Source: a virus
Direction: 5' to 3' (one strand)
IMG/VR virus record: IMGVR_UViG_3300027969_000321
Coordinates: 1 to 29,470 of that record
DNA length: 29,470 bases
Shown: positions 4,933 through 27,618 of the stretch, piece by piece
Position numbering within the stretch: position 1 is the stretch's first letter
Layout of the letters: every line of letters starts with the position of its first letter
Translations under genes and position numbers: made by a program
The notes under the pieces: generated by a model
Told to the model about the DNA's origin: nothing
The model's input: the letters and a program-made list of their open reading frames with translations, nothing else
The model's database searches: none

Positions 4933-6597
<1,665 letters not shown>

Positions 6598-6941: not shown

Positions 6942-7262
6942 ATGCCAGGTTATGCAAATCCAACCGACCTTACGGGAGCAACCGTAATAGGTTATGACTC
7001 GAGAGATACTCTTCCCTTAGCTAGCGCTCTTGGCGGATTCCCAACTATTGAAGAAATTGGGGATAAAACATTCTACGGATGGAAATTAGATCCCGTCACT
7101 GGACGCCTTACTGTTACTAAGATTGACTCAGACGATAACTCAGTAGTTGACCTACCAAAAGAGAACATTTTAAGAGATAATGACTACAAAGTATGGGTTT
7201 GGACCACAAGCTTAATCAAGCTAAGTTGGAACGCTGACCATCTAAATATGGAGGTAAATTAA
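6942..7262 (+). CDS. Small virion-associated protein (unknown)
   Basis: 106 residues with GGAG 6-7 nt before ATG. The text includes an Asp/Thr-rich N-terminus (ANPTDLTGATVIGYDSRDTLP) and a compact beta-like second half (FYGWKLDPVTGRLTVTKID, DYKVWVWTTSLIKLSW). The stop overlaps the start of the 924-aa fibre gene as TAATG, which points to coupled synthesis with that fibre, for example as an adaptor or assembly partner. I do not recognise the family. Confidence 0.6.
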   Translation: MPGYANPTDLTGATVIGYDSRDTLPLASALGGFPTIEEIGDKTFYGWKLDPVTGRLTVTKIDSDDNSVVDLPKENILRDNDYKVWVWTTSLIKLSWNADHLNMEVN

Positions 7263-10036
7263 TGGCACAGATTATTGACCTAGGCAAACTTCGGTTTGTT
7301 TTTAAGGGAACCTACTCTGGCTCAACAACCTACGAGCTAAACGATGTAGTTCGTTACGGTGGTAACCTCTATGTTTACAAGTACGTACTAGAGACAAGCG
7401 CAAACCTCCCAACCAACGCTACTTATTGGGACTTGATGATGGAAGGCATCTCTTTTAAGGGTACTTACAATAACTCCACTGCTTATAAAATTGGCGACCT
7501 TGTAACTGAAGGCGGTAAGGGCTTTATCTGTATCTTGGATTCAACAGCCAATCGTCCACCTAATGGAACCTATTGGACAACTATTGTAGACGGCCTCCAA
7601 TACGAAGGTGAATACTCAGGCTCTACAACTTATCAAGTAAACGACGTAGTTAGCTACGGTGGTTCTGCGTACATTAATATTCTTAGATCAACTGGAAATG
7701 CCCCAACAGATACCACTTACTGGAATCTATTTGTTAACGGTGCTTACCCAGATCAAACTAGTAAAGCAACATTTATTTTAACAACAAACGGCACTGCCGT
7801 TGCTTGGACAGACACGCCAACTTTAACCACTCTTGCAACTCGTGCAGACATCACTGTTGGTGGCGACGTAATAGCTCAGGGAAGCGTTGAAGTAAGCGGC
7901 CGTGCAGTATCTATTACTAACAAGGTAATTTCTTCTAACACAGCAACCGTGACTACTTCTGCAAAACATTATTTTGACGTTGGTGACACTGTTCTTGTTG
8001 CTGGAGTTGGCGCTGGTTGGAACGGCAGTAACATTCTTACTGGCGTAACTGACACTACCTTTAGTTTCTTTACCTCTGCTGCAAACTCAGCATCTGCTGC
8101 TGTATCACCAGCTGGAACTGGAACAGTAGTAGGACACATTGTTAACGGCGGAAATCTTTCAGTAGCGGGTACAACTACCCTTACTGATCTTTTAAACGCT
8201 AACGGCGGAATCGCTGTCAACACAAACAAATTCACAGTAGACGCTACTACTGGAGATACTGTAGTAGATGGCGACTTCCATGTAGAGGGCACCCCTTACT
8301 TTGGAGCAAATGCTGTAACGATTGCAGAGACTAATGGCGCTAACGTAAAATCAACTTCGTTTAAGGCGCGTACTTCAAACGTAGCAACTATTACTACTAC
8401 CGCACCACACAACTTCTACCCATTCCAAAATGTTATTGTTGCAATTGGCGATGCCACATTTGATGGTCCAGCAGAAGTTATTGCTACCCCTACAACCACT
8501 ACCTTTACCTATGCTAACGTTGGTACAAACTTAGCTTCAACAGCAGCCTCTGGCTCTGGAAAGCAAGTAAGCGCCGCAACTGGATTTACTAACCTAATTG
8601 CATTTGCTGAGATTAACGCAGCAGATGACTTCGCTCAGTTCTCAATCCAAAATACAGCCGCTGGAACTAACTCTTCAGCCGACTTCCAAGCATACCCAGA
8701 CAACGGTACAGACTTCTCTGGTTATATTGATATGGGTATCACATCTTCTACCTTTGCTGACCCAGAGTTTACAATCACCGGTCCAAACGATGGTTACATC
8801 TTTATGACTGCACCGGTAGGAACTACTGGTAAGGGAAACCTTGTTCTTGCAACAGGTGGCTACGGATCTCAAAATAAAATTGTTTTTGCAGCAGGTGGTC
8901 TTGATTCTAACTCTTCACAGATGGAGATCACTCCTAACCAAAACGTAAAAATTTCTATCCCTACACCTTCTACAAGCGCTACAACTGGTGCTTTCCAAGT
9001 AGTTGGTGGCGTAGGTATCTCTGGTGACTTGAACATTGCCGGTAACGTAAACATTGTCGGTACTATCGCATTTGGTGGTTCTGGAACAACAGTTACAACT
9101 AACAACCTATCTGTTGGTGAGCCAATGATTTTCTCTGGTGCTGGTAACCAAGCAGATATCCTTGACGAAGGTATGATCTTTGAATACGCCAAGACTGTAT
9201 CTGCCATTACTAATACAGTAACTAATAAGGCTCTTACATCTAACGTAGCAACACTTACTACAGGAACTGCCCACACCTACCGTGCTGGTGACGTTGTAGT
9301 GGTTTCAAGCGTAGATGCAACTTTCAACGGTACCTACTCAATTATTGCGGTACCTACCTCAACAACATTTACCTATGCTAAGACAGCTACTAACGTAACT
9401 TCCGCAGCAGTATCACCAGTTGGTGGAACCTCTGTAGCGGCTCGTCGTGAGTTTGCAGGTATGGTTCGTGACGCAGTCGATGCTGGCGGAAATGGAATCT
9501 TTAAAGTATTTACTGGCGCAACAACTAAGCCAACTACATCAGTTAACTTTGCTGAAGCGGGTCTTACCTACGGAAACGTACAGGTTAACAACTCAATCGT
9601 TGGCGGAACCCTTGCAGTAACTGGCAACTCAACCTTTACAGGTGATGTAACTATTGCTGGTAACCTCAAGGTTCAAGAAATGTCCGAAGATGTTATCGAC
9701 GTAGCGCTTTCTTCTAACGTTGCTGCACTTGACTACGCAACAGGTAATATCTTCTGGATTACCTCAACACCTTCTGCTGCTATGACTTGGAGCATTACAA
9801 ACGCACCAACAGTTAACGGTCGTACATTTACAATCACTGGTTTTGTAACTCAAGGTGCTACTGGATACATCCCATCAACTCTAAACGTTAACGGCTCTGC
9901 TGTTACAATTAAGTGGTTTGGTGGAACATCTCCTACACCAACATCATCTTCAGGCAAGATTGATATATTTAACTTCACACTCATCTATCGTGGATCTGCT
10001 TTTACAGCTCTGGGTAACGCATCAGTTAACTTCTAA
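7262..10036 (+). CDS. Large modular tail/neck fibre protein
   Basis: 924 residues, strong GGAGGT site before ATG. Residues about 10-158 hold three copies of a ~47-aa unit (FKGTYSGSTTYELNDVV..GG.LY..K..T...P.N.TYW), which resembles small carbohydrate-binding-like beta domains in other fibres. A second ~65-70-aa unit occurs three times (about 222-292, 370-440, 658-725): T/SSN.ATVTT...H....GD.V.V......F.G......TTFTY. Around 578-612 is TGAFQVVGGVGISGDLNIAG, a linker motif common in phage fibres. The C-terminal ~130 residues are Thr/Ser-rich beta sequence. The role is most likely host-surface contact. Chaperone-type C-terminal autoprotease residues were not identified. Confidence 0.8.
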   Translation: MAQIIDLGKLRFVFKGTYSGSTTYELNDVVRYGGNLYVYKYVLETSANLPTNATYWDLMMEGISFKGTYNNSTAYKIGDLVTEGGKGFICILDSTANRPPNGTYWTTIVDGLQYEGEYSGSTTYQVNDVVSYGGSAYINILRSTGNAPTDTTYWNLFVNGAYPDQTSKATFILTTNGTAVAWTDTPTLTTLATRADITVGGDVIAQGSVEVSGRAVSITNKVISSNTATVTTSAKHYFDVGDTVLVAGVGAGWNGSNILTGVTDTTFSFFTSAANSASAAVSPAGTGTVVGHIVNGGNLSVAGTTTLTDLLNANGGIAVNTNKFTVDATTGDTVVDGDFHVEGTPYFGANAVTIAETNGANVKSTSFKARTSNVATITTTAPHNFYPFQNVIVAIGDATFDGPAEVIATPTTTTFTYANVGTNLASTAASGSGKQVSAATGFTNLIAFAEINAADDFAQFSIQNTAAGTNSSADFQAYPDNGTDFSGYIDMGITSSTFADPEFTITGPNDGYIFMTAPVGTTGKGNLVLATGGYGSQNKIVFAAGGLDSNSSQMEITPNQNVKISIPTPSTSATTGAFQVVGGVGISGDLNIAGNVNIVGTIAFGGSGTTVTTNNLSVGEPMIFSGAGNQADILDEGMIFEYAKTVSAITNTVTNKALTSNVATLTTGTAHTYRAGDVVVVSSVDATFNGTYSIIAVPTSTTFTYAKTATNVTSAAVSPVGGTSVAARREFAGMVRDAVDAGGNGIFKVFTGATTKPTTSVNFAEAGLTYGNVQVNNSIVGGTLAVTGNSTFTGDVTIAGNLKVQEMSEDVIDVALSSNVAALDYATGNIFWITSTPSAAMTWSITNAPTVNGRTFTITGFVTQGATGYIPSTLNVNGSAVTIKWFGGTSPTPTSSSGKIDIFNFTLIYRGSAFTALGNASVNF

Positions 10037-10046
10037 GGAGCACTAA

Positions 10047-11069
10047 ATGCCTTTGTTTAGCAGCCAGCGCTCCGTAAACGGGGTGTTTAGCGCCCGTAAG
10101 AAGTCGGGCGGTGTTTTGCCCTACCTAACTCGCCAAGTTATTACTACGGGTTTTGTTGCCGGGGGCTACAAAGACTCTGTTGCATGGCAAAATGTTAACT
10201 CGTTTGACTTTGCTACAGAGACCACTACTGGTCGTGGAAACCTTTTAACTCACGCAGGCGGTTACATCGCAGGTGCTATGAACCGCACATATAGCTACAC
10301 AATTGGATCCTCAGGAACTGGATCTTCTGGTATGGCCGCTTCTGGTGGAGTTAATAAATGGAACCATAAAACATACGCAATGGTGACTACTCAGACCGCT
10401 CCAGCTACTGGAATGAGCGATCCGGAAACAGCTGTTGAGTACGACTTGCTAGGCACCGGTAAATTTGCATGGGTGCAAACAAACTCTGCAAATATGAATA
10501 AACTTGACATGACTACCGACACCTGGACAACATCTATATCTACGGGTCTTTCAGCAGGTGGATCTGGAGTTGCCTCGTATTGGAACGAAACAGACGCTAT
10601 TTTTTGGGCAGATACCACAGCCACAGCCGCTGCTGATGGGCAGCGTAAATTTAACTTTGCTACGGTTACTGAAACAAATCCAGGAATTTCTTTAAGTACT
10701 TTTGGTAATCAAAAAGGATTAGCTGGAAAAACAGGGTATGGTTGGGCTGGTAACGAAGGTTCTTACAACGGTGGCAATAATTTTCGTAGATATAACTACG
10801 TAACTAACTCCACATCCGTGCAAGGCGCAAAACCAGTCACTAACTCTGGAGAAGAAAACTACTTTACTGGTCAGGCTATAGGCGTGACGTTGGGTTCTTA
10901 CACTGGAGCTGGACAAGTTTTAGACTCTGGCAAATATACCTACGCAACTGAGTCCGGAACACTGCTCCCCTCAGGGCAGTGGTACCGAGGAACACAGTCT
11001 GGTACAGGATCATCAGCTGGTTCAGCTATTGCAGGAGCATCCTCAGGGTGCGGAACTTGGAGTGACTAA
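10047..11069 (+). CDS. Propeller-like receptor-binding protein, paralog A
   Basis: 340 residues, AAGGAG upstream. A conserved N-terminal anchor (MPLFSSQRSVNGVFSARKK, to about residue 48) is followed by about six ~45-50-aa repeats, each with a strand like 'K-F/Y-N/D-F/Y-x-T-D/E-T' (NSFDFATETTT, MNKLDMTTDTW, QRKFNFATVTE, FRRYNYVTNST, SGKYTYATESG) preceded by a Gly-rich aromatic strand (GYGWAGNEGSY). This fits a six-bladed kelch-like beta-propeller. The C-terminus is a conserved GTQSGTGSSAGSAI..SSG..W.D. The next gene is a paralog. Propellers are a known receptor-binding fold; the assignment here is from repeat pattern only. Confidence 0.65.
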   Translation: MPLFSSQRSVNGVFSARKKSGGVLPYLTRQVITTGFVAGGYKDSVAWQNVNSFDFATETTTGRGNLLTHAGGYIAGAMNRTYSYTIGSSGTGSSGMAASGGVNKWNHKTYAMVTTQTAPATGMSDPETAVEYDLLGTGKFAWVQTNSANMNKLDMTTDTWTTSISTGLSAGGSGVASYWNETDAIFWADTTATAAADGQRKFNFATVTETNPGISLSTFGNQKGLAGKTGYGWAGNEGSYNGGNNFRRYNYVTNSTSVQGAKPVTNSGEENYFTGQAIGVTLGSYTGAGQVLDSGKYTYATESGTLLPSGQWYRGTQSGTGSSAGSAIAGASSGCGTWSD

Positions 11070-16866: not shown

Positions 16867-17009
16867 TGCACGATCATGAAAACATGATATTAACTATTGG
16901 CGGTGGCATCAGCGAGATGACCGTCATGTGGATTCTTATGGGATTGATGTCCGCACACCACGCATGGATGTGGTGGAAGATGAGAAAGAAAGAGAAGTGT
17001 GACTGCTAA
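16866..17009 (+). CDS. 47-aa Met/His/Cys-rich small membrane protein
   Basis: Reading: MHDHENMIL...KKEKCDC, TAATG-coupled on both sides, so it sits in one translational chain with the collagen-like gene and the cupredoxin-domain fibre. One hydrophobic segment (about residues 8-37) is rich in Met and Trp ([21 protein letters not shown]). It has eight Met, four His (two near the N-terminus, an HH pair in the segment) and a C-terminal CDC after a basic KMRKKEK run, consistent with a positive-inside membrane protein. His, Met and Cys are the usual copper ligands, which is of interest because the next gene carries a type-1 copper-like site. Not a recognised family; function is inference. Confidence 0.6.
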
Positions 17010-18943
17010 TGGCTGTTAAAATTCAATTTAGACGAGGCACTGCCGCAGAGTGGGTTGCTGCAAATCCTATTCTTTCTCAAGGCGAAGCCGGTTACGAATA
17101 CGACACTGGTAAGTTCAAAGTCGGTAACGGAACTTCAGCATGGAACTCTCTTCAATACTCTTCTGGAACAACTGGTCCTACAGGACCGTTGGGCCCAACA
17201 GGACCACAAGGTGTAACGGGTCCAACAGGATCTACAGGACCCACAGGACCAACTGGTCCGCAAGGCGTTACTGGACCTACAGGACCAACTGGACCAATAG
17301 GTGGAATTAATTTTGCTGTAACTAACAGTGGTATGACGTACTTGGTAGATGGTGTTTCAGCACCAACACTTCAACTTGTTCGTGGAGCACGTTACGTATT
17401 TAACGTAAACGCTACTGGTCACCCATTTTGGATTCAAACAACTGGTAACGGTTATGCTTCTGGCAACGTGTACTCATCTGGAGTAACTGGTGCTGGAGTT
17501 GCTGTTGGTCAAGTTGTATTTGAAGTTCCTTTAAACGCACCTAATACTCTTTATTATCAGTGCCAGTTCCACACAATGATGTACGGTCAAATCGACATCA
17601 TTGGATTTGGAGCTACAGGACCTACAGGTCCCCAAGGAGTAACAGGTCCTACTGGTCCTCAGGGAATTACTGGTCCTACAGGTCCACAAGGAAACCTTGG
17701 GCCAACTGGTCCGCAAGGTGTCCCAATTACGTTAAAAGGTTCTAAAGCAACTGTTGGAGCGCTACCTGCTACAGGAAACATCCTTAACGATGCTTGGATT
17801 GTTGATGCTGATGGAGACATCTATGTTTGGAACGGCACTATTTGGTATAGCGCTGGACAAATTGTTGGACCAATCGGTCCTACAGGTGCAACTGGACCTA
17901 CGGGTCCTACAGGCCCAACAGGTCCTACGGGACCAACGGGTCCTTCAGGAGTTATATCTGTAACGGGACCCGTTACAAATACTGGAACATCAACTGCAGC
18001 AGTTCTTAATATTAACCAAGCATCTTTATCTATTGCTAACACACAGGTAACTGGGCTTGGCACATCTTCAGTTAAAGATGTACCAGCAACGGGTGACGCA
18101 ACTACTTCACAAGTGGTTTACGGAACAGACACACGCCTTACTAACACAAGAACACCTACTGACTTAACTGTTACAACAGGGAAAATTGTTGATGCTAATG
18201 TTACTAACGCAAAGTTAGCAAACAGCAGTATCACTATTGGAACTGACGTTGTGGCACTCGGTGGATCTATTACAACCCCAACTTTTACTGGTCTAAACAT
18301 AAACACTAGCGTTGTATTTGAAGGCTCTACCGCTGATGCTTTTGAGACTACTCTTTCAGTAACGGATCCAACGGCTGACAGAACAATTACGCTTCCAAAT
18401 GCTAACGGTACTGTGGCTCTTGCGGAACAAGTTCTTGCTCGTTTTGACTTACAGTCAACTTACGTTGACGTATCCCCTCGCTGGGATAACCGTTCGGCAA
18501 CATTTGAAAGTGGAACTATCTACTGGACATTCTTTACGCCTATGTTTACAACAACAGTAACCAACGTAACGGTGGCATCTGCTGGTACAGCAACTACTGG
18601 AGCAACTCTTGTAAAAATGGGTATCTACTCATTTAACGAAACAACGGCAACCAGACTTGCTAACACCGCGAATGACGCTACAATCTTTTCAACTCGTAAC
18701 ACTGTTTACACACGAAGTCTTGGAAATTCAGTCACCTTAACTGCGGGTACTCGTTATGGTTTTGCGGTACTTGTATTGGCTACCACTCCGGGAACTGGTT
18801 TCCTAGCGTTCGGTTATCCTGCGACACCACTCAATGTACTTAGCCCAATTATGCGTGGCTACCTAGACGGTCAATCAGATCTTCTGGCTACAGCCACTCC
18901 TCTAACTAACACATCTAACGGATACTGGGGTCGCCTAGCATGA
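17009..18943 (+). CDS. Fibre protein with Mtd-like N-terminus, collagen-like rods and a cupredoxin-like domain
   Basis: 644 residues. Residues 1-50 ([41 protein letters not shown]) match the N-terminal module seen in Mtd-type and many fibre proteins. Residues ~52-97, ~198-237 and ~288-313 are Gly-X-X rods. Residues ~98-197 look like a cupredoxin: GHPFWI supplies H138 and [12 protein letters not shown] supplies C185, H188 and M191. The C-x2-H-x2-M spacing is that of amicyanin and the 47-residue H-to-C distance equals that of plastocyanin. A small insert at ~238-287 resembles that at 265-315 of the collagen gene at 4933. Residues ~314-644 are Thr/Val-rich beta sequence with a C-terminal domain likely to contact the host. 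Metal binding is predicted, not shown. Confidence 0.8.
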
Positions 18944-19071: not shown

Positions 19072-19084
19072 ACTGTGCGCTATG
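19047..19084 (+). promoter_or_regulatory. Leaderless promoter-like element before glycosyltransferase gene
   Basis: AGTC (19047-19050), 18 nt, TAGACT (19069-19074), GTGCGCT (7 nt), ATG at 19082. Compared with 16541-16578 the last 16 bases differ at only three positions (TARACTGTGSGSTATG) and AGTC sits at the same distance. The gene has no other ribosome site. The element covers the stop codon of the 43-aa gene. Confidence 0.5.
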
Positions 19085-20131
19085 AAGATAGCCGTATATA
19101 CGATTGCCTTAAACGAAGAACAGTTTGTTGAACGCTGGTACGAGTCGGCTAAAGAAGCTGACTACCTACTTATTGCTGACACTGGTTCTACTGATGGGAC
19201 TATTGCCCTTGCTAAAAGTCTTGGGATAAATATAGTTGAAGTTTCAATTAAACCGTGGAGATTTGATGATGCTCGTAATGCTAGCCTCGCTTGCCTCCCT
19301 AGGGATATTGATTATTGTATTGCTTTGGATCTCGACGAAGTTTTAATATCCGGTTGGCGTGCAAAGTTAGAAGCCATACCAACACAAACAACTAGACCGC
19401 GATATAAATACACGTGGAGCTGGACTGATGATGGAAACCCTGGGCTTCAATACAGCGGAGATAAAATTCATTCTCGCCACGGGTACCGTTGGAAACACCC
19501 AGTACACGAAGTAATGGTTACGGATCGAATTATTCAAGTAGAAGAGTGGACTGAACTTGAGATTCACCACCACCCAGACAACTCAAAGCCTAGGTCTCAA
19601 TACATGCCTTTACTGGCCCAGTCGGTACAAGAAGACCCACACGATGACCGCAACGCTTTCTACTACGCCAGAGAGTTGTATTTCTACGGTGAGTATCAAA
19701 AGTCTACAGAGGAGTTTAAGCGGCACTTAAACCTCCCTACGGCTATCTGGAAACCTGAACGAGCGGCGTCTATGAGGTACCTAGCTAAGATGGATGATGA
19801 CCTACAAGTGAAAGAAGAGTGGCTTAGGAAAGCAGTTAGTGAAGCGCCCAACCGTCGTGAGGCTTATGTAGATCTTGCTGCTCTTTATTATTCAACTCAA
19901 TCTTGGCTTGCTTGCCTAGACTCCGCTAAAAACGCCTTAGGTATAGTTGAGAAACCCTTAGAGTATCTCTGTGAGGAATATGCTTGGGGCTACGCCCCGT
20001 ACGATTACGCAGCCCTTGCCGCATATAACTTAGGGGAAACCTCTGAGGCGTTGGAATACGGCATGAAAGCAGTAGAGCTCAACCCGACAGAAGAACGATT
20101 ACAGCGTAACCTTATGTTCTATAAAGCTTAA
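19082..20131 (+). CDS. Family 2 glycosyltransferase with C-terminal TPR-like repeats
   Basis: 349 residues. The N-terminus has the GT-A fold signature of GT2 enzymes: YTIALNEEQFVERWYESAKEA, IADTGSTDGT (D33) and the metal-binding DLDE (D83, D85). The WKHPVHEVM stretch near residue 140 is the usual acceptor-side motif of SPS/GT2 enzymes of the 'tetratricopeptide' type. From about residue 180 the sequence is helical with TPR-like pairs (AFYYARELYFYGEYQKSTEEF, AYVDLAALYYSTQSWLACLDSAKNAL, AALAAYNLGETSEALEYGMKAVELNP). It probably transfers a nucleotide-sugar glucosyl or similar unit to a protein or surface glycan. In this block the Thr-rich fibres are plausible acceptors, but host envelope glycan is an equal alternative. 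Confidence 0.85.
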   Translation: MKIAVYTIALNEEQFVERWYESAKEADYLLIADTGSTDGTIALAKSLGINIVEVSIKPWRFDDARNASLACLPRDIDYCIALDLDEVLISGWRAKLEAIPTQTTRPRYKYTWSWTDDGNPGLQYSGDKIHSRHGYRWKHPVHEVMVTDRIIQVEEWTELEIHHHPDNSKPRSQYMPLLAQSVQEDPHDDRNAFYYARELYFYGEYQKSTEEFKRHLNLPTAIWKPERAASMRYLAKMDDDLQVKEEWLRKAVSEAPNRREAYVDLAALYYSTQSWLACLDSAKNALGIVEKPLEYLCEEYAWGYAPYDYAALAAYNLGETSEALEYGMKAVELNPTEERLQRNLMFYKA

Positions 20132-22238: not shown

Positions 22239-23729
22239 ATGCCTGCATACCTTCGTCCCGGTGTGTTCGTTGAGGAATCCCTCAACTTATCCGCACCAGT
22301 ACAAAGCACCACATCGCAGTCAATTGCTGCCTTTATTGGCTATACGGATCGTGGTCCTATCACTCCAACTCTGGTCACATCCTGGAGCCAATATGTCAGC
22401 CTTTACGGTGGGTGGACAACAAACACAAAAATGCACACAGCGCTTTTGTTGTTTTTTTCAAATGGCGGAAGCCAAGCTTATATTAAACGTGTACCCGGTA
22501 GTGGATCTGACATCTCTACTCGTACACTTAAAGATCGAGCGGGAACACCTTTAAACACGCTTACAATTAATTCAGCAAACGTAGGTTCTTGGGGCAGTCT
22601 TGTAAACATTTCTGTCGCAGCATCTGCAACTGCTGGTTCATTTGATCTTACAGTTTATTACAACGGTATTGCCGACACTAATATTGTTGAGCGTTACACC
22701 GACCTTACAATGACTGTGACAGACGATCGTTACGCTGTAACTTTAGTTAACTCACAGTCTAAGTATATTAAACTAATTGATGAGAATTCTGCAACAACAG
22801 GAGCTCTTCGTATTCCAGTAATAACTACAAATGCTTATCTAATCAGCGGTACAGATGGAACTCTTCCAGCAGATTCAGCTGTTGCTGGAGCCGTATCATC
22901 TTTTGATACTGTAATTAATTCACTAGTTCTAAATGCACCAGGAATTAATGAAGCAACTTCTGTAAACCTTCTTACAGCTTATGCGGCAGCTCGTGGCGAC
23001 GTATTTGTTGTTATTGATCCAATAGCTGGAACTGCGGCAAATCAAATTACTCGTGCTAACTCTTATACAGCAACTTCATACGGTGCTGTATACTTCCCAG
23101 AAATCGTAATTAAAGACCCAACAACTAACACACAAGGAGTAACAAAATCTGTTAGCCCTGGTGGAGCGGTAGTTGGTCTTTACCTAAGCACAGATGCATC
23201 ACGCGGTGTGTTTAAAGCTCCAGCGGGTCTTCAGACCCGTGTCGGAGGCGCTATTTCTGTTGCACCTTTAACTAACTCTGAACTTGATTTGCTAAACAGC
23301 AACAGTGCTGCTGTAAATGCAATTAAGTTTGTTCCGGGTTCTGGAATCGTAGTTATGGGTTCACGCACACTTCAGGGAACATACGTAGATCGTTATGTAC
23401 CTGTACGTCGTACACTTATTTACTTACGTAAATCAATGTCAGACCTTAGCCAGTTTGCAATCTTTGAGCCAAACGATGAAGTATTGTGGCGCTCAATCAC
23501 GGCATCACTGGAAGGTTTCTTAAATAACTTCTGGCGTCAAGGCGGTCTTCGCGGAGCGGTTCCAAGTCAAGCTTTCTATGTAAAGTGTGACGCTGAAACT
23601 AATCCACAGTCTGCAATTGACGGTGGTCAAGTAAACATCGAAGTTGGTGTTGCTCTACAGCGCCCAGCCGAGTTCGTAATCATCAAAATCGGACAGTTTG
23701 ACGGTGGCACCACCGTTACTGTGGCGTAA
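22239..23729 (+). CDS. Contractile tail sheath protein
   Basis: 496 residues, AAGGAG upstream. The start PAYLRPGVFVEE and the following AFIGYTDRGP are classic for tail sheath proteins, as is the C-terminal part RRTLIYLRKSMSDLSQFAIFEPNDEVLWRSITASLEGFLNNFWRQGGLRG. The sheath surrounds the tube and contracts on infection. The length is short of T4 gp18 (659 aa) and near the simple sheaths of phages and injection systems, lacking most surface-exposed insertions. Its neighbour is the tube gene. Confidence 0.93.
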   Translation: MPAYLRPGVFVEESLNLSAPVQSTTSQSIAAFIGYTDRGPITPTLVTSWSQYVSLYGGWTTNTKMHTALLLFFSNGGSQAYIKRVPGSGSDISTRTLKDRAGTPLNTLTINSANVGSWGSLVNISVAASATAGSFDLTVYYNGIADTNIVERYTDLTMTVTDDRYAVTLVNSQSKYIKLIDENSATTGALRIPVITTNAYLISGTDGTLPADSAVAGAVSSFDTVINSLVLNAPGINEATSVNLLTAYAAARGDVFVVIDPIAGTAANQITRANSYTATSYGAVYFPEIVIKDPTTNTQGVTKSVSPGGAVVGLYLSTDASRGVFKAPAGLQTRVGGAISVAPLTNSELDLLNSNSAAVNAIKFVPGSGIVVMGSRTLQGTYVDRYVPVRRTLIYLRKSMSDLSQFAIFEPNDEVLWRSITASLEGFLNNFWRQGGLRGAVPSQAFYVKCDAETNPQSAIDGGQVNIEVGVALQRPAEFVIIKIGQFDGGTTVTVA

Positions 23730-23744
23730 AGGAGACATATAAAA

Positions 23745-24347
23745 ATGGCAACCGATAGCGTAATCAATCGCTTTTCTAGCGTAGCGACCGATCCACTTCG
23801 TTCGTTCCGCTTTCACGTTGAATTCCTTGCGCCTCAGCAAGGAAGCAAGGTGAGCAGCTCAATCACTGGATTCAAGGGCGGATTTACACAAATCTCTGGT
23901 CTTGGAATCAACACACAGTCAATCGCGTACCGTGAAGGTGGCTACAACACCACAATTCACCAAGTACCTGGAATGACAACATTTAACCCAATCACGCTTA
24001 ACCGTGGAGTTATCGTTGGAAACGATCAGGGTATGAAATGGATGCGACACCTATTCGCAGCAGCAGCAGGAGATGGTATTGCCTTAGGCGATAACGATTT
24101 CCGTTGCGACCTTAAGATCTACGTAATGGATCACCCAGCAGCAAGCAACGCAACCGCTACAACTACTGGTGAAGGTGGATCAAACGTTCCAAAGATGGGA
24201 TTCCACGTGCACAACGCATGGATTTCAACTTTGAACTACTCTGACATGGATGCAGGTGGAAACAACCTCATGGTAGAGACCATCGGTCTTGTACATGAAG
24301 GACTTTCAGTATTCTTTACTGGTGCTGATTACACTCGTACCGCTTAA
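23745..24347 (+). CDS. Tail tube protein (T4 gp19-like)
   Basis: 200 residues, AAAGGAG upstream. The N-terminal DPLRSFRFHVEFLAP and FTQISGLGINTQSIAYREGGYNTTIHQVPGMTTFNPITLNRG are the signature of gp19-type tube proteins. It builds the rigid inner tube through which DNA passes. It is followed by a chaperone-like gene and the tape measure, which is the normal order. Confidence 0.9.
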   Translation: MATDSVINRFSSVATDPLRSFRFHVEFLAPQQGSKVSSSITGFKGGFTQISGLGINTQSIAYREGGYNTTIHQVPGMTTFNPITLNRGVIVGNDQGMKWMRHLFAAAAGDGIALGDNDFRCDLKIYVMDHPAASNATATTTGEGGSNVPKMGFHVHNAWISTLNYSDMDAGGNNLMVETIGLVHEGLSVFFTGADYTRTA

Positions 24348-24372: not shown

Positions 24373-25170
24373 GTGACCGAGTCAACAAGCTCAAATCCAC
24401 AACTTATAGCAAAAGCCGCAGCTCAATTTGAAGAAACGCCTAAAGTAGCAGTTGTTACTAAGGCGCCTTCTGACACTGAGGTCGCCCTTCCCGGAGGATT
24501 TATGAACCGGGAGGGTGCCTTAGTTAAGTACGCGGAAGTCCGTGAACTTAATGGCGCAGATGAAGAAGCAATTGCTCGATCTGGTAATACAGGTCGTGCG
24601 TTGAACACCATGCTTCAGCGTGGTTTGGTAAGCCTAGGTATGGAGTCAGCGTCTAAAGAAGATTTAGACACCCTTCTATCTGGAGATCGTGATGCAATCC
24701 TAATTGGAGTACGCATTGCAACATTTGGAAATGAAATTGAATTCAACGGAGCATGTCCTACCTGTGCTGCTGAGCAAGCTCTGGTTTTAGACCTAACTAA
24801 AGATATTCCAATTAAGGAACTTACTGATCCAATGGAAGATCGAATGTGGGATTATGAATCAAAGCTGGGAATTGTAAAAGTTGGTCTTCCTACAGGAAGC
24901 GTTCAGCGCAGACTGCTTGAGAATTCCGAAAAAAGTGCGGCAGAATTGAATACAATTCTATTGGCTGGGTGTGTAGCATCTATCAATGGAAGTCCTTCAA
25001 TTGGCGCTACTGATGTTTTAAGACTTAGTTGGAAAGATCGTGAAGTACTCGTACAGCAAATTCTAGACCGTAACCCAGGCCCACGCCTTGGGGAGGTGAA
25101 GAAGGTATGCGAGGCATGTGGTGAGGATATTCCGATGCCACTGACCTTGGCTGCATTGTTTCGAGTATAA
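24373..25170 (+). CDS. Tail assembly chaperone-like protein (short, 0-frame product)
   Basis: 265 residues, GTG start with AAGGAG. The position between tube and tape measure is that of tail assembly chaperones (lambda gpG/gpGT). The sequence resembles the T4 baseplate-protein family (gp26/gp51 type): DTEVALPGGFMNREG..VKYAEVRELNGADEEAIAR, VRIATFGNEIEFNGACPTC (C128, C131), WKDREVLVQQILDRNPGPRLGEVKKVCEACGEDI (C246, C249). Two CX2C pairs could form a zinc knuckle. The gene stops at 25168, but another frame continues for 48 codons with no start codon near its beginning, which points to a frameshift (see 25159 and 25163). Confidence 0.7.
   Translation: MTESTSSNPQLIAKAAAQFEETPKVAVVTKAPSDTEVALPGGFMNREGALVKYAEVRELNGADEEAIARSGNTGRALNTMLQRGLVSLGMESASKEDLDTLLSGDRDAILIGVRIATFGNEIEFNGACPTCAAEQALVLDLTKDIPIKELTDPMEDRMWDYESKLGIVKVGLPTGSVQRRLLENSEKSAAELNTILLAGCVASINGSPSIGATDVLRLSWKDREVLVQQILDRNPGPRLGEVKKVCEACGEDIPMPLTLAALFRV
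25159..25164 (+). other. Candidate +1 programmed ribosomal frameshift site (UUU_CGA)
   Basis: 0-frame reads GCA TTG TTT CGA GTA TAA. The downstream frame has its last stop at TGA 25142-25144, so the shift must take place between 25145 and 25170. TTT followed by CGA fits: the Phe tRNA can slip from UUU to UUC, giving Glu (GAG, 25163) next. This UUU_CGN set-up is the same type as the known influenza PA-X +1 site. Confidence 0.6.
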
Positions 25171-25309
25171 AGACGAAGACTACGTAAATTTACTGGACCA
25201 ATTTGAACTACTAACTCGGCACTTTACTGGATGGACTTTGACGGATATCCGATCACTGTCCTTTAGAGAACGCAAAAATTGGATTGACCGATCCAGACGT
25301 AGGGGTTAA
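25163..25309 (+). CDS. +1 frameshift extension of the tail chaperone gene (gpGT-like)
   Basis: A 48-codon frame beginning EYKDEDYVNLLDQFELL and ending IDRSRRRG, entered by a +1 shift from TTT 25159. It has no ATG, GTG or TTG near its beginning. The helical pattern (WTLTDIRSLSFRERKNWID) looks like the T part of other tail chaperones, where 'L..R....WI' is common. The fused product would be about 311 residues. In most known phages the shift is -1; here the frame difference is +1 (or -2). Confidence 0.6.
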   Translation, partial: EYKDEDYVNLLDQFELLTRHFTGWTLTDIRSLSFRERKNWIDRSRRRG

Positions 25310-25311
25310 TA

Positions 25312-27618
25312 ATGGCGGGTAAAAACACTAGCTCAGCAATGGGTGTTGGCGGAGGCGGTATCTTCAGTCGTAAGACTGAACTTGTCGCCGATTTAACGAC
25401 CGCTTTTAAAACCCTTAATGCTGAACTTGAAAAAACTAAACGCCTATCTGAAGAAATATCTAAGAACCTTAAAAATGCAAGACCAGGTTCTGGCGGAGGA
25501 AGCAATCTTCTAGGCTCTAGCTTTGGTCCGTCTACTGGAACTCAAGACACCGACACCTCTGGCGGTAATGGTGGAACTGGTGGCGGGGGTGGACCAAGTG
25601 TTGCTTCCCGTGTTATGGGATTCCTTGGTCGTAACGCTTTAAAGCTTGGCGCTATTGGCTTACAAGGTGTTCCTACAGTTGAACAAGCTTTTGAACAAGA
25701 TTTGCTACGTTCACGCTTTGGTTTTTATGGCGGAAAGAACGCTAACGCAACCCAATTAAATATGGCAAGACAGGGTACAACTACTGACCCTATGGATGCC
25801 GCTCGTGCCTCTATGACTGGTGCAAGCATGGGCTTAATGCCCGGACTTAAAAACTTTAGTTCTATTGCAAGTAGCGCAGCAGCAATTTCTAACCTTATGC
25901 CTGGTGTTGGTCTCCAAGGCGGTATGCAAGCAATGGGTGCGCTTAACCAAGGTAAAAATGTAAACATGCTTAAGATGATTGGCGTCAATGTGCGCGGCGC
26001 TGATGGCATGATGCGTCAATTCCAAGACATAGCTAAAGATTTATGGAAAGTATTAAATAGTCAAAAAGCTGGCTCTGGCAGCATCAGCAAAGAAGATATT
26101 TCGTTTTCTTTGCAGCCTGGCAATGCGCTTGATTCTATGATGAATCAGTATTTTGGCAATGATCCAATTCTTCGTCAAACAGTTATCTCTGAACTTATGC
26201 TTTTGGCTGGTACTGGCGGTAAGGGATCGCCTATGAATAAAAAAACCCTTGCTGATCAGGGCGCAACAACAAGCGCTGTTACCTCCATGAGCGATAGAAA
26301 CGCAGCATCGCTTAACGCTACTCAAGCAGTTGCCCCTTCGGTCTTAAAAGGGTTTGAAACAGCAAACGACCTGTTAGCCACGGCAAGTAACAAACTTGCA
26401 GACGTTGCTAGGTCTGCGGGCCTTGTTGGTGATGCACTACGTAAAGCGCTAGAAGTTAAAGGATTTACAGACACCGTAGCTAGCTCTGGTAACGGAGCCG
26501 GTAGCATGCTGACATCCCTTCTTGCTGGTGGTGCTGGAGCGTTTGCTGGCAAAGCATTTAGCGGAATGAAAAATTTCTTTAAGGGAGGTCCTAACGGGGC
26601 TCCTAGTAAAGCATCTAGTTTATTTAAAGGTGTTGGCTCTAAAGCAATGAAACTGGGTGGTCGTGTCTTATCTGGTGCGGCTGTCTACGGTTCAATGGAG
26701 TGGTTGCAAAAGCAATTAAACAGAGCGGATGTTCCTGACTGGCTACGCACTGCTGGAAACGTAGCCTTTGACACCGCACAAGGTGGTTTAACGGCATTAG
26801 CCACAACTAAAAATCCATACGCGGCAATTGCTGGATCTGTTGCAGGTGGTGTTGGAGCGCTTGCTAACCCATACGGCGAAGAGGGTGACGGCTCAGATGG
26901 AGCAGACCCTTCTAGGGTAAACCCACTTAGCGGAGCATTAACGGTAACAAGTCCATTTAATGAAGTTCGACACATTACTTTTTCGGACGGATCAAAGAGC
27001 CCAACTTGGGGTAAAGCGCACGGTGGTGTAGACCTTCGTGCTGCTGAAGGAACAAACGTATTTGCTGCAAGCGACGGAGTGGTTGAAGGAACCCCATTTG
27101 ATGGCGGTGGTTTTGGAAACTACATAAAGACGCTAAACCCAGATGGCACTGAGCATTTCTACGGTCACTTAGACAAAAAAATTGCTGCTGCAGGTAAAGC
27201 AGTTAAAGCCGGTGAACTTATTGGTCAAAGCGGTAAATCTGGTGGTGGGCCCGGTATGGGACCGCACCTTCACTTTGAAGTACGTAAGGGTGGAAACAAG
27301 TTAGACCCAATGCAGTACTTATCTAATGCTGCTGAAGCGGGAAACAACTCTGTTCCACCAGCTAAATCAAGCCTTACTATTAAAAAGGGCGCTGGCGAGT
27401 TAATTCTTCAGCCTATGGGTGGAGAAGGCCACACACCTGCTGCTGGATTTGGTCGTGGAGCTACCCATCAAGACACTGCGCAAACAGTAAATTACGGTGG
27501 AGTAACTATTAACTTCCATATGCCAAAAGAAGGATCAACGGATGTAAAATTAATTGCATCAGAATTGCGAAGAATTCTAAGTGATAGTTCAATCCGTGAG
27601 AAAGCGATGACAAAATAA
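25312..27618 (+). CDS. Tape measure protein with C-terminal M23 (LytM-type) peptidase domain
   Basis: 768 residues. The N-terminal half is Gly/Ala/Ser-rich and helical with hydrophobic glycine-rich segments (SMLTSLLAGGAGAFAGKAFSG), typical of tape measures that fix tail length. Residues ~540-680 are a peptidase M23 domain with HGGVD (H570, D574), YGHLDK (H619) and PHLHFEV (H652, H654), the complete zinc and catalytic set for a peptidoglycan endopeptidase. The domain would help tail penetration of the cell wall. At roughly 0.15 nm per residue (usual family relation) the tail would be in the order of 100 nm. Short AGGGG upstream acts as ribosome site. Confidence 0.88.
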   Translation: MAGKNTSSAMGVGGGGIFSRKTELVADLTTAFKTLNAELEKTKRLSEEISKNLKNARPGSGGGSNLLGSSFGPSTGTQDTDTSGGNGGTGGGGGPSVASRVMGFLGRNALKLGAIGLQGVPTVEQAFEQDLLRSRFGFYGGKNANATQLNMARQGTTTDPMDAARASMTGASMGLMPGLKNFSSIASSAAAISNLMPGVGLQGGMQAMGALNQGKNVNMLKMIGVNVRGADGMMRQFQDIAKDLWKVLNSQKAGSGSISKEDISFSLQPGNALDSMMNQYFGNDPILRQTVISELMLLAGTGGKGSPMNKKTLADQGATTSAVTSMSDRNAASLNATQAVAPSVLKGFETANDLLATASNKLADVARSAGLVGDALRKALEVKGFTDTVASSGNGAGSMLTSLLAGGAGAFAGKAFSGMKNFFKGGPNGAPSKASSLFKGVGSKAMKLGGRVLSGAAVYGSMEWLQKQLNRADVPDWLRTAGNVAFDTAQGGLTALATTKNPYAAIAGSVAGGVGALANPYGEEGDGSDGADPSRVNPLSGALTVTSPFNEVRHITFSDGSKSPTWGKAHGGVDLRAAEGTNVFAASDGVVEGTPFDGGGFGNYIKTLNPDGTEHFYGHLDKKIAAAGKAVKAGELIGQSGKSGGGPGMGPHLHFEVRKGGNKLDPMQYLSNAAEAGNNSVPPAKSSLTIKKGAGELILQPMGGEGHTPAAGFGRGATHQDTAQTVNYGGVTINFHMPKEGSTDVKLIASELRRILSDSSIREKAMTK

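Follow-up and report, generated by a model that had tools for sequence, protein, structure and literature searches.

Evidence for a very probable programmed +1 frameshift at UUU_CGA in the tail assembly chaperone gene of a contractile-tailed phage

At the 3′ end of one tail gene in a virus record from IMG/VR, the reading frame closes at a TAA, and a second frame, displaced by +1, remains open almost as far as the next gene. The question raised by this locus is how ribosomes could enter that second frame. The record is metagenome-derived, and its whole stretch of 29,470 bases is referred to here as the window. The answer favored below is a programmed +1 frameshift at UUU_CGA within a tail assembly chaperone gene. 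We give this reading a probability of roughly 0.93 on sequence evidence alone, as there are no protein, ribosome-profiling or reporter data, and the phage would then very probably make two versions of its chaperone. An initial annotation of the window had proposed a +1 shift at UUU_CGA, joining the chaperone to a 48-codon extension, and comparison of relatives now lends that proposal strong support.

The tail gene region and the overlapping frame

The window is from a contractile-tailed phage, and the gene in question lies between those for the tail tube and the tape-measure protein (Table 1). Its product matches PF12322, a family of T4 baseplate proteins, with 35.2 bits, above the curated cut-off of 24.5, and the same family is matched by all 30 of the chaperone relatives in one comparison set (A4). 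AlphaFold gave a pLDDT of 33 for the short form when run on the single sequence and of 86 when supplied with 30 relatives. In a Foldseek search, the latter model matched T4-like baseplate hub assembly proteins with E-values down to 9e-22; the HK97 chaperone 2ob9 was its second match in the PDB, but was not significant. Because position and PF12322 family point the same way under the established gene order of phages, the ORF is identified as a tail assembly chaperone of the T4 gp26/gp51 type, a function inferred from these two lines of evidence. The T4 proteins belong to the same sequence family and predicted-fold family as the short form of the window, but they are encoded by two separate genes on opposite strands, whereas the window has one gene and a putative frameshift. 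We take gp26 and gp51 to be the proteins meant in the published chaperone assignment for this family. That assignment covers T4-like members of the PF12322 group and is due to Vladimirov et al. 2022, as cited in PMC12846349.

Elsewhere in the window, three long genes resemble those for tail fibers (4933–6597, 7262–10036 and 17009–18943); collagen-like families match the first and the third, and the third begins with an Mtd N-terminal (major tropism determinant) domain. A glycosyltransferase-like gene (19082–20131; phrog_13126, E 3e-116) lies within the structural region, just ahead of the tail genes.

The 0-frame of the chaperone ORF ends in GCA TTG TTT CGA GTA TAA. The +1 frame is open from position 25145, following a TGA at 25142–25144, to a TAA at 25307–25309. 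The initial annotation had placed the end of the 0-frame at the TAA beginning at 25168 and the open downstream frame at 25145–25309, and these coordinates are correct. It had also noted the lack of a start codon near the beginning of the downstream frame. This too holds, as the first ATG, GTG or TTG in that frame is a TTG at 25238, which is 79 nt past the TTT and within the conserved part of the extension. A +1 shift at the TTT, with TTTC read as a single Phe, would yield a fusion of 311 residues, comprising 263 residues shared with the short form plus 48 from the extension.

Table 1. Positions of the tail genes, the putative shift site and the associated sequence elements in the window.
Feature	Coordinates	Strand	Basis or remark
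Tail sheath protein	22239..23729	+	phrog_23 E=1.9e-49, PF17482
Tail tube protein (T4 gp19 family)	23745..24347	+	PF06841 E=2.2e-23
Tail assembly chaperone, short form, 265 aa; zinc-finger protein of T4 gp26/gp51 type	24373..25170	+	PF12322 E=1.4e-8, phrog_150
Synonymous block CCCAGGCCCACGCCTTGGGGAGGTGAAG, function unknown	25074..25101	+	Strongest synonymous-site conservation of the chaperone gene
RNA stem-loop GUGGUG-(12)-UGCCAC, candidate 5′ stimulator	25118..25141	+	Coupled base changes; -8.4 kcal/mol
Putative shift site TTG TTT CGA; P-site codon TTT at 25159-25161	25156..25164	+	TTT then C in all readable relatives
+1-frame extension, 48 codons plus stop	25163..25309	+	Homologous extensions in all 154 readable loci
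0-frame stop TAA, two codons past the shift codon	25168..25170	+	Sequence
Tape-measure protein with peptidase M23 domain	25312..27618	+	Start 2 nt past the stop of the extension

Conservation of the junction and selection on the extension

Related loci were gathered from two scans of viral contigs, one scan of genomes and annotated Streptomyces phages, yielding 158 in total, with some contigs fetched twice. Both parts of the gene were readable in 154, some of which are from the same contig, and 70 representatives were chosen that are <95% identical to each other. One arrangement holds without exception across the 154 readable loci, even at protein identities of only about 35%: the extension occupies the +1 frame, and a TTT followed by C stands at the junction. 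A +1 extension in all of these loci is far beyond chance.

The codons around the junction differ in how strictly they are kept. Among the representatives, the P-site codon is TTT in 70/70, as compared with 80% of Phe codons elsewhere in the same genes, and the E-site codon is TTG in 68/70, as compared with 14% of Leu codons elsewhere. The A-site codon is CGT in 34, CGC in 26, CGA in 8 and CAA in 2, so that 68 of the 70 have CGN; outside CGN, other relatives have CAG, CCG or CTC. Since a few relatives carry CAA, CAG, CCG or CTC, CGN in the A site is a preference and not a rule, and UUU followed by C is the constant element of the putative shift site. The initial annotation had suggested a comparison of related phages for TTTCGA at this place; TTT C is invariant and CGN nearly so, with CGA itself in eight of the 70 representatives. 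Traced on a tree of other regions of the chaperone gene, TTT shows no change at all, as against a minimum of 12 changes in the third base of the A-site codon and of 17 in the stop codon.

Further evidence was obtained from loci of unusual composition or more distant relationship. For example, five GC-rich loci (L088–L092), of which four are from actinobacterial genomes and the fifth was binned as proteobacterial, have exactly one TTT in the gene as against 4–10 TTC, and in 5/5 the sole TTT is the shift codon. Eighteen further Borockvirus-like loci, 17 of which reach the junction, have TTT CGN or TTT CAG, and in Borockvirus-like Streptomyces phages the extension is again in +1. Several relatives (e.g. 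L059, L062, L067) have a +1-frame stop immediately upstream of the site, and the shift would therefore be confined to TTG-TTT-CGN-NTA, a stretch in which only TTT can re-pair at +1.

Differences among the 70 representatives within the extension fall on codon positions 1, 2 and 3 of the +1 frame in proportions of 30/18/51%, like those of the upstream 0-frame (29/19/52%), and the median dN/dS of the extension is 0.19. Downstream of the junction, the 0-frame has stops in 70/70, and in 68/70 a stop closes the -1 frame within 40 codons. Because of this codon-position pattern, the low dN/dS and the stops in the other frames, the extension is judged to be selected as a protein, and in the +1 frame only; comparison thus demonstrates conserved coding on both sides of the junction. 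A chaperone frameshift calls for such an extension, conserved and in a second frame, where the first ORF ends, and the locus has one. The extension was also compared with that of phage SP-15, with a clear similarity for one relative of the window (0/500 shuffles) and a weak one for the window itself (P 0.02). Similarity to the C-terminus of T4 gp51 was borderline at best (P 0.02 and 0.16 in pairwise shuffles) and is not claimed.

The proposed slip, upstream RNA elements and other readings

The tRNA for phenylalanine pairs with UUU by wobble and with UUC perfectly, and a +1 slip would be favorable because its pairing improves in going from UUU to UUC. In the proposed mechanism, most ribosomes would read the chaperone ORF to its TAA and release the short form. 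A minority would slip by +1 while UUU occupies the P site and CGA the A site; tRNA-Phe (anticodon GAA) would re-pair with UUC as the better codon, and decoding would resume at GAG to give the long form. The slippage itself, its rate and the ratio of the two products are inferred. By analogy with gpG and gpGT of lambda, the short form may coat the tape-measure protein and the long form may recruit the tail tube subunit through its extension; these roles and partners are likewise inferred. The stem-loop upstream is envisaged to refold behind the ribosome and stimulate the shift.

Slow decoding of CGA, which the initial annotation had invoked as an aid to slippage, finds no support in the relatives. 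CGA is uncommon in the A site, and CGT, the Arg codon that the window uses most, is still the most frequent A-site codon among the relatives, so a slow CGA is not needed. A rare-codon pause at CGA was rejected on these A-site counts and on codon usage. Neither the window nor two long relatives were found to encode a tRNA for Phe or Arg.

The stem-loop is under selection, as judged by coupled changes among the aligned genes. It comprises six pairs and a 12-nt loop and ends 17 nt before the TTT. Among 3081 third-position pairs in the last 240 nt of the gene, two of its pair columns come first and fourth for excess pairing, and its pairing counts were equaled in 0/500 shuffles. At the pair 25119/25140, a switch from U-A to C-G is coupled in ~9 of 11 independent contrasts (sign test with phylogeny, p about 0.004). 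It is likely to be a stimulator of the shift. A hairpin adjoining the E site stimulates +1 shifting on 70S ribosomes (PMC6321510), and the present stem-loop, at 17 nt from the P-site codon, is farther away than the E-site-adjacent hairpins tested in that work, for which reason its effect remains an inference.

The strongest synonymous-site conservation in the gene is located 58–85 nt upstream of the shift site and not at the site itself. In this block, GGG and GAG are each kept in 68/69, GTG in 69/70 and CGC in 67/70. The block contains GGAGGTGA, in its sole copy in the window, without a conserved start codon after it. A hairpin at 25074–25092 was considered and rejected, as no covariation is left once phylogeny is controlled for (p about 1). 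In Borockvirus-like Streptomyces and soil phages (L082–L085, L160–L176), a possible CCCAC/GUGGG hairpin is found at -22 to -8, adjoining the E site, together with conserved GTC and GTG codons.

It is quite possible, though somewhat less likely than not, that the stem-loop and the synonymous block serve some other purpose, such as mRNA stability, a binding site or a folding pause, and have no effect on frameshifting. The block is too far upstream to touch a shifting ribosome, the stem-loop stands off by its 17 nt, and neither is present in that form in Borockvirus-like and GC-rich relatives, which nonetheless retain TTT C. However, with UUU in the P site the stem-loop would lie near the point at which the mRNA leaves the ribosome, the Borockvirus-like phages can form their own, different hairpin nearer the site, and stimulation of +1 shifting on 70S ribosomes by upstream hairpins has precedent (PMC6321510). 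Neither a signal of downstream (3′) RNA structure nor, at -25 to 0 in the 70 loci, any Shine-Dalgarno-like string was found, and since both kinds of stimulator appear to be lacking, the efficiency of the shift may be low.

Readings of the frame change other than a +1 slip fare less well. A shift of -2 leads to the same frame, as the initial annotation pointed out, and is known for the tail chaperone of phage Mu, as quoted in PMC3498833. It is not an equal alternative, however: at TTG TTT CGN, tRNA-Phe would land on UGU with a mismatch in the middle, and the invariant TTT and C would go unexplained, whereas +1 re-pairing on UUC needs both. The -2 shift is thus disfavored and regarded as improbable.

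Even less credible is a separate small gene with its own start or with re-initiation, as suggested by public records in which a small ORF inside the extension is listed for BRock (NC_048650 gp135), LuckySocke (OR725497 gene 91) and GiJojo (PP725410 gene 83). The +1 ORF of 16/70 representatives contains no ATG, GTG or TTG at all. Many others, among them the window, have their first such codon only within the conserved part, and conservation in the +1 frame begins at the TTT codon. An independent start is very unlikely on these grounds, and the entry of the extension in these three records as a separate hypothetical protein starting inside it is probably a misannotation.

A -1 frameshift at X_XXY_YYZ was rejected on the early stops in that frame, and transcript slippage would have only a run of three T, which is too short. 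Finally, loss or gain of one base through sequencing error or gene decay, conceivable in a metagenome-derived record, is refuted by the comparison: all readable relatives change frame identically at this codon, and the sequence before and after it is under purifying selection.

Relation to known frameshift systems and distant chaperones

Programmed +1 shifting on bacterial ribosomes is known from Listeria phage PSA, SPP1 and the RF2 gene (prfB). PSA shifts on the proline codon CCC, in contrast to UUU in the window. RF2 shifts on CUU before a stop with the help of a Shine-Dalgarno element, whereas the window lacks such an element and has CGN in the A site. The tail assembly chaperones gpG and gpGT of lambda and their frameshift have been reviewed (PMC5009743). 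As in the window, the lambda gene lies between those for the tail tube and the tape measure, but it is of another sequence family and uses a -1 shift on a slippery heptamer rather than +1 at UUU_CGN.

Parallels to the proposed +1 slip exist in RNA viruses of eukaryotes, the signal being known from influenza and from further viruses that infect animals, plants and fungi. For influenza PA-X, a P-site slip at UCC_UUU_CGU was shown by mass spectrometry (PMC3498833). UUU_CGN is also prevalent in plant amalgaviruses, which use each of the four CGN codons in a way that tRNA supply does not explain by itself (PMC5052127). This class has in common with the window the P-site re-pairing from UUU to UUC (putative here), CGN in the A site and a preference that codon rarity does not explain. 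By its sequence, the window qualifies as a member, with UUU in the P site followed by C, the extension in +1, and CGN, as CGA, in the A site. It lacks the influenza-type UCC in the E site and has TTG there; TCC is present in the haloarchaeal virus HSTV-2 and in some relatives. The known members act on 80S ribosomes, whereas those described here are dsDNA tailed viruses of bacteria (and archaea). No report of UUU_CGN in a phage was found in the open-access literature. UUU_CGN is described as a class in viruses of eukaryotes; by genome comparison, it is here conserved in bacterial viruses and, within another chaperone family, in archaeal viruses.

More distant PF12322 chaperones seem to be extended in +1 likewise. 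They carry TTT CGT in Streptococcus phage vB_SagM-GXN1, TTT CAC in SP-15 and TTT TTT A in Listeria phage LIS04. The PF12322 chaperone of the jumbo phage LR756508 (L087) ends in TTT CTA. In the group of loci found through it (L178–L191, L194–L195), the chaperone ends in TTT TGG, with an extension in the +1 frame where readable. This suggests that a +1 shift where UUU precedes U or C could be a general trait of the family.

Haloarchaeal Hafunaviridae carry TTT CGC at the end of a chaperone gene of their own, one that is not recognized by PF12322. The site was found in HSTV-2, HRTV-7, HRTV-5, Serpecor1 and three metagenomic relatives, several times as TCC TTT CGC and each time with a long open +1 extension. 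For HSTV-2 (joined CDS in NC_020159), in which the junction is TCC TTT CGC, a +1 shift in the tail chaperone has been called very likely (PMC5009743). It has a +1 extension in common with the window, although its chaperone has no PF12322 match and its extension cannot be aligned with that of the window. This haloarchaeal myovirus site and the upstream stem-loop are new beyond the initial annotation.

A broader proposal, on which we are evenly divided, is that UUU_CGN works on bacterial, archaeal and eukaryotic ribosomes alike, and that it arose independently in PF12322 phage chaperones, haloarchaeal myovirus chaperones and eukaryotic RNA viruses. In the phage clade, a boost would come from a naturally evolved hairpin upstream, which would drive the ribosome forward on refolding in its wake. 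If phages and archaeal viruses share the four-base slip and the CGN preference, the cause would have to be sought in features common to all ribosomes. Candidates are the re-pairing of tRNA-Phe and something about the decoding of CGN, not codon rarity, and the cause of the preference would be testable in ordinary laboratory bacteria. For annotation, a rule for PF12322 chaperones is suggested, namely TTT C near the stop plus an open +1 frame ahead of the tape-measure gene; the public records of BRock and LuckySocke have the two parts entered as separate proteins.

In the window and two long relatives (L214–L223), Phe-Arg pairs tend to avoid TTT CGN and to favor TTT AGR. The avoidance of TTT CGN is clear in one relative (3 seen vs 12.9 expected) and absent in another (15 vs 19.2). 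It is weak in the window, with 2 seen vs 6.4 expected, one being the shift site and the other a TTT CGT at 10782.
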